Shown here piece after piece: positions 1 to 41,494 of a stretch of DNA of 41,494 nucleotides (its first letter is position 1; each line of letters opens with the position of its first letter). A program made the translations under genes and the position numbers. Source of the stretch: a virus. The DNA is taken from positions 1-41,494 of the IMG/VR virus record IMGVR_UViG_3300027721_000030. One strand, given 5' to 3'. The notes under the pieces were generated by a model. That model was given only the letters and a program-made list of their open reading frames with translations, was not told the origin of the DNA and searched no databases.

Positions 1-131
1 GTTTGAAAATGTTGTATGTATATTATAAAAGAAAAATATTTTATGAATATAATTATATATTACATACAAATTGACGATGTTTATGGGATGAAAATGAATT
101 AGATGATATTATGCAAATAAACTTATTTAAA
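1..131. repeat. Left copy of terminal direct repeat
   Basis: Bases 6-131 are identical to 41369-41494. The five bases before them (GTTTG) also match 41363-41367 if one A is inserted, since this copy has AAAA where the right copy has AAAAA. This is what a circular or circularly permuted genome assembled slightly past its start looks like. The unit length would be about 41,36x bases. It may be an assembly overlap rather than a packaged terminal redundancy. Confidence 0.95.
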
Positions 132-37894: not shown

Positions 37895-37927
37895 ATATAA
37901 GATAGTTGTATTATATTGTTGTAAAAG

Positions 37928-37966
37928 AATCAACGTACTGTGGTTAGAGCGTTGATTTTTTTTGTA
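37928..37966 (+). terminator. Strong intrinsic terminator ending the late region
   Basis: AATCAACG (37928-37935) and CGTTGATT (37950-37957), a perfect 8-bp stem with a 14-base loop, then TTTTTTTG. It separates the late operon from the early region. The 234 bases from 37895 to 38128 hold this terminator, the promoter at 38089 and an A/T-rich stretch without other visible features. Confidence 0.9.
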
Positions 37967-38116: not shown

Positions 38117-38128
38117 TTCCATACACAA

Positions 38129-38182
38129 ATGAAACAACAAAATCCAAAGTGATATGAGTTTTGATTGTGATACCACTTTTAA
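38129..38182 (+). CDS. Possible 17-codon leader peptide
   Basis: MKQQNPKGYEFGLGYHF, just after the promoter and 18 bases before the next gene. Contains three TGA glycines, so it could respond to the glycine-tRNA(UGA) supply if translated, but this is only a possibility. Confidence 0.35.
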
Positions 38183-38200
38183 AATCTAACCACTTTAAAA

Positions 38201-38422
38201 ATGAAAAAACCATTTATCAATTATCGTAAGGACTTTAACCTATTAGAGTATGTAGCAAAAGAGAATGGTCTTAGTATAGAAACTGCTGACATGTTGTTGT
38301 CAGACTGGAAGCTAAACCATAATGGTCAAACATTTCATGAATATTTACAGGAGATGAAAGCCGAACTAATGATGGATAAATACCCTGAATTTTCTTTATT
38401 TCATAACAATAAAAATGCTTAA
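38201..38422 (+). CDS. Early small protein
   Basis: 73 residues, helical (LLEYVAKENGLSIETADMLL and FHEYLQEMKAELMMDKY); both glycines are GGT. ATG in a CCACTTTAAAAATG context repeated just upstream (CCACTTTTAAAA). The first clear gene of the early unit, often the place of host-takeover proteins. No family recognised. Confidence 0.75.
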   Translation: MKKPFINYRKDFNLLEYVAKENGLSIETADMLLSDWKLNHNGQTFHEYLQEMKAELMMDKYPEFSLFHNNKNA

Positions 38423-39454: not shown

Positions 39455-39637
39455 ATGGATTTAGTATTATGATTATTATGATTATGAGTTTATTTATTGC
39501 CATGAATAATAGCAAGTTCAAGAAAAAACAAAAATGAGCAATCAATATGGTTATGGAATATATTTTGATGATGGTGTTGAATAGTATGGATAGTATGTTT
39601 GATAAATGCTATATCATGAGAAAAAGAAAAAGAATAA
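39455..39637 (+). CDS. Superinfection immunity (Imm-like) membrane protein
   Basis: 60 residues. VYLLPGIIASSRKNKNEQSIWLWNIFGGWCGIVWIVCLINAI matches the superinfection immunity protein family (YxLPxIIAxxRxKxNxxxIxxLNxxLGWxxIGWIVALxWA), two membrane helices with a basic turn between. T4 Imm blocks entry of superinfecting phage DNA. Encoded just before promoter P2. Many of its glycines are TGA. Confidence 0.85.
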
Positions 39638-39645
39638 ACTTTGTC

Positions 39646-39673
39646 TTGATTTATTAGATAAATTGATTATAAG
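39646..39673 (+). promoter_or_regulatory. Early promoter P2
   Basis: TTGATT (39646-39651), 16 bases, TATAAG (39668-39673), in the same TCTTGATTTATT...GATTATAA context as the promoter at 38089. Expected start about 39680, directly in front of the structured RNA element. Confidence 0.78.
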
Positions 39674-39679
39674 TAAGTC

Positions 39680-39761
39680 AATCCAGTGTTTAAATGTCGG
39701 CTAACATAAAAAACACTTGGGTACACAAAAAGTCTTAGCCGACAGCCCAAGTGTTTTTATT
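39680..39761 (+). ncRNA. Structured RNA / attenuator with interlocking complementary segments
   Basis: Segments in order: C 39685-39691 (AGTGTTT), A 39695-39704 (TGTCGGCTAA), B 39709-39721 (AAAAACACTTGGG), A' 39735-39744 (TTAGCCGACA), B' 39746-39758 (CCCAAGTGTTTTT), then ATTTAT. A:A' (10 bp, perfect) and B:B' (13 bp, perfect, ending in a U-tract like an intrinsic terminator) cannot both form as simple hairpins: the order A-B-A'-B' is pseudoknotted. C can pair with the first part of B (7 bp), competing with B:B'. So the transcript of P2 could either end at about 39760 as a short RNA or read through into the replication genes. Which signal decides is unknown; a countertranscript or a ligand is possible. 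Confidence 0.7.
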
Positions 39762-39776
39762 TATATTAAATTTAAA

Positions 39777-40490
39777 ATGTCAGATCAAATTATTAGAATA
39801 CCACTAAAATATCTTGAGGTTATAAATACTATATCAGATGAAGAAGCTTGAAAGATATTTAAAAATATTCTTGGTGGTGATAAAATACTTGATTGACTAA
39901 CAAAAGTTTATTATAATTTAATTATTACTGATACAAATAATATACAAAGGAAAGTAGAAATATGACAAAAAAATGGAATCTTAGGTAAAGACTATTGAAA
40001 GTTATGATGAAGACCAAAAAATAACCCCCTAGGGGGAAAAAAAATAACCCCCAATATACATAACAATACAATACATATAAATAAAATAAATAAAGAAGAA
40101 CAAAAACTCTCCTTCTGAATAAAATGATTGGTTAAACTTAAACAAACAGAACATGAAAAATTAATTAAGCAGTACGGCGAAACTGTTATAAATAAATATA
40201 TACAAGATGTTGAAAATTATATAGTTAATTGAAAAGGTGGAAAATATAAAGATCATTACTTAGCAATACTTAAACGATTAAGAACATCAGAAGTTAAGAA
40301 GATAGATCATAAAGAGCTAACAGATCAAGAATTGTTTGAAATTATAAAAAATGATAAACTAGTCCTCGGCGTTTCAGTATCACATTATGAATCTAAACGA
40401 TGATCTGAAAGATATAAAAGAATTTACCAAATGCGAACAGATTATAAAAGGGAAAGGTTCTTATGAGTTTTAAATCTTAACAAAAATTAA
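39777..40490 (+). CDS. Replication initiator / helicase-loader-like protein
   Basis: 237 residues. N-terminus IPLKYLEVINTISDEEAGKIFKNILGG ... KNGILGKDYGKLGGRPKNNP resembles the phage replisome-organiser type (AGxLFxxIxxY..., ending NGxxGGRPK); C-terminus (HEKLIKQYGETVINKYIQDV and YKDHYLAILKRL) is the helical domain typical of DnaD/loader-type proteins, followed by a basic tail. A GC-rich palindrome and direct repeats lie inside its coding sequence (40025-40052), as in lambda O. Directly upstream of the helicase gene (next ATG follows its stop). Confidence 0.72.
40025..40052. other. Candidate replication origin inside the initiator gene
   Basis: CCCCCTAGGGGG is a perfect 12-bp palindrome at 40025-40036, and AAATAACCCCC occurs twice, at about 40019-40029 and 40042-40052, with an A-tract between. 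In a genome otherwise very A/T-rich, this is the strongest local G/C cluster. Iteron-like repeats within an initiator gene are known for lambda O. Confidence 0.55.
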
Positions 40491-41342
40491 ATGATTAGTT
40501 TGCAAGAAGAACTCGAACAATTAGAAAACGAAATCACAAAAGTAAATGACATAGATTGGACAGATATAAACGAATACACACGATGAATAGATTGAATGCC
40601 ACACTGGTTAGGAAAGTTTTGAAAAAGAGATTTGGTTGTTTTAGCTGGTTATCCTAGTTGTTGAAAAACAGAGTTTACGTTCTTTTTAGCTAAAAAGAAC
40701 GCCGACATATGAAATAAGACTTTGTATATAAGCTTAGAACTTAAACCACAAGATTTATTCACAAGAATTGCAAGAAAAAGAGCTTGAGTATCAAAACTAA
40801 ACTTTCAGAATAAGCAGAATATAAGTAATGAACAGTTTGATATAATAGATAAAGAATATAAATGATTACAAAATCAAAAGAATATTAAAGTATTATCTTA
40901 TAAAAAATCTCCCAATGTTAATGAAATAATAAACACAATGGAAAAGTACAGGAAAATGTGATATGATTTGTTTTTTATAGATAACCTTTGAAAAATACAA
41001 TGAGATCAAAACGAATCAATAAGATTCCCAATTATAACAAGTAAACTACAAGACTATAAAAACGATAAGAATATTTGTATTTGGTTGCTTCATCATTTAT
41101 CAAAACCAACAAAACAAAACCAATATCAACCCTGATGAATAAGTTGAATAAGATGAAGTCAAAAGATAATAGATAATTCAAGTTTAATCTTTGAATTATA
41201 TAGAAATCTTGATCCTGATGATCCAATAGAAGATAAAAATAAGGTTGATTTAATATTATACAAAGACACTATAGATTGAGCAGTTTGAACGGTATCATTA
41301 AGATTTGAAAAATCAAATTATTTTATATACAACAATAAGTAA
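40491..41342 (+). CDS. DnaB-like replicative helicase (RecA-fold)
   Basis: 283 residues. GYPSCGKTEF (Walker A, 53-62), ISLELKPQDLFTR (H1a), DLFFIDNLGKI (Walker B, D164), LLHHLSKP (H201-H202) and GISGIRGSQKIIDNSSLIFEL (arginine finger-type end) in the DnaB C-domain order. It lacks the full N-terminal domain of DnaB; residues 1-50 include a short HWLGKFGKRDLVVLAG lead-in. It would unwind DNA at the origin, loaded by the upstream protein. Stop and the next ATG share an A (TAATG). Confidence 0.85.
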
Positions 41343-41494
41343 TGGATTATAAATTAGAAAAGGTTTGAAAAATGTTGTATGTATATTATAAAAGAAAAAT
41401 ATTTTATGAATATAATTATATATTACATACAAATTGACGATGTTTATGGGATGAAAATGAATTAGATGATATTATGCAAATAAACTTATTTAAA
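41342..41494 (+). CDS. 5' part of a small gene crossing the circular junction
   Basis: 51 codons to the window end, continuing at base 132 and ending at TAA 195-197 (72 residues). ATG overlaps the helicase stop. Starts MDYKLEKVGKMLYVYYK. The five-A tract at 41368-41372 keeps the ATG in frame with the rest; the four-A tract in the left copy would break it. Unknown function; it connects the replication genes to the ParB-like gene, whose ATG follows the stop by 9 bases. Confidence 0.72.
41363..41494. repeat. Right copy of terminal direct repeat
   Basis: Repeats 1-131 with one extra A. See the left copy. Identity outside the A-tract is complete. Confidence 0.95.

Follow-up and report, generated by a model that had tools for sequence, protein, structure and literature searches.

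The window analysed here is the whole of the IMG/VR virus record IMGVR_UViG_3300027721_000030, all 41,494 bases, which reads in genetic code 25 (TGA as glycine) and carries all of its recognised genes on the plus strand; the hosts of this phage appear to be bacteria of the Gracilibacteria type, in which one stop codon is recoded. The ends of the window (1-131 and 41364-41494) match over about 131 bases, apart from a single difference. This terminal repeat suggests a circular or terminally redundant genome, and on such a map the replication genes at 39777-41342 run on into position 1. The gene for a superinfection-immunity membrane protein (39455-39637; PF14373, E = 1.2e-11; phrog_1039, E = 1.8e-15) is followed on the plus strand by a promoter, P2, and then by five short segments, C, A, B, A' and B', which end just ahead of position 39777. 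At that point starts the gene for a putative replication initiator, replisome-organizer-like by a weak partial match (39777-40490; phrog_13246, E = 1.2e-6), itself followed by a DnaB-type helicase gene (40491-41342; PF03796, E = 7.4e-24). Further upstream, an intrinsic terminator composed of a 13-pair hairpin and a long U tract (37924-37961) closes an operon, beyond which a second promoter, P1 (38087-38115), precedes a set of small early genes. Gene starts across the window show no Shine-Dalgarno signal, having instead an A-rich stretch at -12 to -1, itself preceded by a stretch made up of A/T only. Elsewhere, at 207-2466, lies a ParB-like and PAPS-reductase-like gene pair of the IbrB/IbrA type, which is 50-70% identical among otherwise unrelated phages with very different G+C content.

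The five segments occupy the positions assigned to them by a sequence-only reading of this DNA. Segment C (39681-39691), the putative antiterminator strand, begins at the predicted +1 of the P2 transcript. A (39695-39704) and A' (39735-39744) form a perfect 10-bp match and would constitute the two strands of a clamp stem, the latter lying inside the terminator loop. B (39709-39722) is, according to the perfect repeat and the computed folds, a shared strand able to pair with either C or B' (39745-39758), the 3' strand of the terminator. Both long matches proved to be as originally described, 10 bp for A:A' and 13 bp for B:B', to which folding adds one U-G pair, bringing B:B' to 14 bp and moving the start of B' one base upstream of the initially proposed 39746-39758. 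The C:B pairing, by contrast, had been put at 7 bp and is longer: AUCCAGUGUUU (39681-39691) pairs with AAACAC-U-UGGGU (39711-39722) in an 11-bp helix interrupted by one bulged U, which makes C a slightly imperfect copy of B'. The U tract UUUUUAUUUAU (39754-39764) marks the predicted 3' end of a short RNA.

P2 (39644-39673) had been described as TTGATT-N16-TATAAG at 39646-39673. The promoter call stands, and its definition is improved to TCTTGATTTATT-N9-GATTATAA, a motif of 24 specified bases that occurs exactly twice in the window, at P2 (39644-39672) and as an exact match at P1, and not at all in 100 shuffles. For comparison, we used 353 genomes from the class of a Gracilibacteria genome, reached through a DNA probe for the EF-Tu-like motif HVDHGKTT with the glycine written TGA. 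Matches of the element DNA to these genomes comprised mostly the promoter segment, and the promoter pattern with at most one mismatch was found at 7 sites, versus 0 for the reversed control. At 8 of the 9 inspected motif sites, an open frame of 85 codons or more begins with an ATG 28-45 nt downstream, although two of the nine come from a genome set partly chosen for having matches and other open frames overlap some of the sites. P2 is thus a predicted promoter with strong, if not perfect, independent comparative support. In these genomes, TTGAYTTATT-N11-ATTATAA resembles a strong promoter type of the Gracilibacteria class, with conserved bases beyond the two hexamers. The P1 leader (38122-38204) has features of its own: it includes a 14-nt direct repeat (ACCACTTTTAAAAT / ACCACTTTAAAAAT) at 38172 and 38189, and an upstream CAAAGTG could pair with either CACTTT copy, possibly as a smaller switch ending at the ATG of the first early gene.

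The five-segment arrangement is not the product of chance. Besides A/A' and B/B', the 41.5 kb contain no interlocked pair of perfect inverted repeats with 9 bp or more (span below 90); interlocked pairs with at least 4 G/C per arm were absent from 40 dinucleotide shuffles of the whole window, and those with at least 10 bp in each repeat appeared at a mean of 0.025 per shuffle in 40 such shuffles. Across the genome, the loop of a terminator with this geometry matches the preceding 35 nt over 10 nt at a frequency of 0.0018. Pairing with B as good as that of C has a frequency of 0.0013 in random 21-mers and 0.0005 in shuffled upstream sequence.

B:B' has both hallmarks of an intrinsic terminator, a stable hairpin (-17 kcal/mol as a bare hairpin) and a U tract directly after it, although its loop is long, at about 22-24 nt. 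Only two good U-tract terminators were found on the plus strand of the window, B:B' and the one at 37924-37961, and B:B' is the stronger. A promoter followed by competing antiterminator and terminator stems ahead of a gene is the generic anatomy of an attenuator, which the element shows; regulated read-through would be the predicted consequence. Folding of the growing chain gives C:B an energy of -8.3 kcal/mol by position 39720 and -11.6 kcal/mol by 39724; B:B' prevails only from 39756, when B' is nearly complete, and reaches -20.5 kcal/mol as the best nested fold. The combination of C:B with A:A', calculated by summing the helix energies and adding a pseudoknot penalty of 9.6, reportedly from Dirks and Pierce, comes to about -23.5 kcal/mol against the -20.5 of the terminator. 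This is a rough hand estimate with an error of several kcal/mol, and we call the two states balanced because of the size of that error. The earlier proposals that the stems exclude one another and that C:B and A:A' can combine into a pseudoknot thus hold as statements on sequence and energy. The loops of such a pseudoknot would measure 3, 6 and 12 nt, the last being A-rich, dimensions that an H-type fold should be able to accommodate. Geometry further argues that A:A' and a complete B:B' would not coexist, since 4 nt would need to span both helices. In the pseudoknot, the GGG required by the 5' end of B' would lie at the opposite end, so that A:A' would serve as a clamp on the antiterminator. 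A' ends 1 nt before B' starts, and since it emerges just before B', A:A' and B:B' would race.

We consider it about an even bet that the element is a cis-acting attenuator, in which a pseudoknotted antiterminator competes with a terminator and which gates transcription from P2 (and P1) into the initiator and helicase genes. From the sequence we infer that the RNA switches between termination and read-through, that the pseudoknot forms, that an input sets the switch and that replication is controlled; the course of events would be as follows. A transcript begun at P2 (about 39680) or arriving from P1 would make C:B first; as A' emerged, A:A' would close over C:B as an H-type pseudoknot and keep the 5' end of B' off B, allowing RNA polymerase to continue into the initiator and helicase genes. 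Were A:A' unmade or opened, B' would displace C, and B:B' with its U tract would form, leading to a stop near 39760 and release of an RNA of ~80 nt. The input would most likely be a factor, from the phage or the host, that binds the C/A/B/A' region or melts it. Both promoters sharing the motif precede B:B', and the terminator ends only about 17 nt short of the initiator ATG; hence, transcripts from P1 and P2 have to read through B:B' before the initiator and helicase genes are reached. The initiator could have a promoter of its own further downstream, or a nearly leaderless one, and a weak promoter-like site with 9 of 12 matching positions before it (39739-39767) is at chance level.

A different role for the same RNA, which we regard as rather unlikely, is that of a standalone small RNA gene: the ~80-nt P2 transcript ending at B:B' would act in trans or as an antisense RNA, with the initiator expressed from other promoters or by leak-through. 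The element does have its own promoter and terminator, and most of the 5' 28 nt are unpaired in the terminator fold. The 5' end (39673-39691) is 84% complementary to 19 nt of the initiator gene (39883-39901), and this pairing, at -21.7 kcal/mol, ranks with the genome's few best sites, but a shuffled 5' part finds equally good partners somewhere in the genome. A freely acting small RNA would, moreover, leave unexplained why C copies B' and why A' lies inside the terminator loop. Both features would be accidental or decorative repeats if B:B', by itself a good terminator, simply insulated the early genes from the replication genes. The chance frequencies of A:A' and C:B, each near 0.001-0.002 given the terminator, speak against such accidents, and a promoter placed 80 nt ahead of an insulating terminator makes little sense, so that we hold simple insulation to be improbable.

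The inverted repeats could also be read at the level of DNA, as half-sites for protein binding in an operator or a replication origin rather than as RNA stems. The location directly before the initiator gene would suit an origin, and phage origins are often found in or near initiator genes. The element has no iterons, however, and the U tract, the placement of the promoter and the bulged C:B pairing fit RNA better. A better candidate origin lies within the initiator gene at 40016-40052, where AAAAAATAACCCCC is repeated at 40016 and 40039 and is accompanied by a CCCCCTAGGGGG palindrome; we propose this region as the best replication-origin candidate and consider a DNA-level role of the element very improbable. 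Least probable of all is trp-like attenuation by a ribosome on the 14-codon frame at 39694-39738 (MSANIKNTWVHKKS), which would set the fold by covering A, B or A': the frame does cover A and B and stops inside A', but its start context falls below 94% of the gene starts of the phage, it has no run of one regulatory codon, and, by a rough estimate, frames of such length arise often in AT-rich sequence when two codons signal a stop.

The attenuator reading finds partial parallels among known systems. The pT181/pIP501-type plasmid attenuators likewise have leader stems that exclude one another, with a terminator, ahead of a replication initiator gene, and they are set by antisense RNA from an opposing promoter. 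For our element, the suggested likeness to the pT181 type is not borne out in this respect, as no antisense promoter is supported: the P1/P2 motif is absent from the minus strand of the window, and general promoter-like sites on that strand are at chance level. The c4 antisense RNA of phages P1 and P7 is likewise short and structured, has a promoter of its own, lies in an immunity and replication neighbourhood, and has a defined complementary target, whereas the complementarity of the element to potential targets is not beyond chance; the best nearby pairing falls within the shuffled range, and the c4 comparison proposed earlier fails at that point. The put antiterminator RNA of phage HK022 resembles the element in being a structured RNA right after an early phage promoter. 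It adopts a double-hairpin fold, modifies RNA polymerase for distant terminators and has no terminator of its own, whereas the element includes one, and the P1 leader lacks a similar fold.

The preQ1, fluoride and ZTP riboswitch classes include pseudoknots with a terminator expression platform, and in these the resemblance concerns design: in a 5' leader, an early H-type-like pseudoknot and an intrinsic terminator compete for the same strand. Unlike in these riboswitches, the antiterminator strand of the element is a copy of the terminator strand, and the element has no aptamer consensus, no metabolic gene downstream and no riboswitch match in Rfam. The impression from the sequence that it belongs to no recognised family agrees with a covariance-model search of Rfam 15, which yielded 0 matches above the gathering score and only weak ones below it (E 0.4-3), with no riboswitch among them.

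Searches of viral contigs, phage records and the 353 Gracilibacteria-class genomes yielded no close relative. Viral contigs were queried with the initiator, helicase, terminase, capsid and IbrA proteins, an alignment of three helicases, the promoter pattern and the A:A' pattern; genome contigs with the terminase; and the 353 genomes with the helicase, terminase, initiator and element DNA. The DNA search of phage records returned 0 matches. Several candidates were considered and set aside. The closest helicases (34-35%) are primase-helicases adjoining a serine recombinase, without such a leader; the IbrA matches belong to otherwise unrelated phages that have mainly the IbrA/ParB pair in common; one contig encodes a weak relative of the initiator (34% over 88 aa), the upstream sequence of which, judged by eye, lacks such an element; and three pattern matches were chance matches. 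With a single sequence known, the lack of covariation reflects the extent of the data and does not count against the stems. In two genomes of the Gracilibacteria class, the helicases closest to that of the phage are code-25 primase-helicases beside a serine recombinase, probably integrated elements.

A literature search retrieved no work on how phages of code-25 bacteria regulate their genes, and the one phage paper retrieved on these bacteria (PMC10746230) does not contain the word "promoter". The promoter motif offers a usable handle on transcription starts in this uncultivated group. Beyond the attenuator itself, we tentatively suggest, at somewhat less than even odds, that the element represents a new family of self-contained phage RNA switches, in which, just ahead of the replication genes, an H-type pseudoknot antiterminator opposes an interlocked terminator, timing or autoregulating replication in a code-25 phage. 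If it works as argued, it would be a compact gate for phage replication, in which topology, beyond strand competition alone, blocks the terminator.
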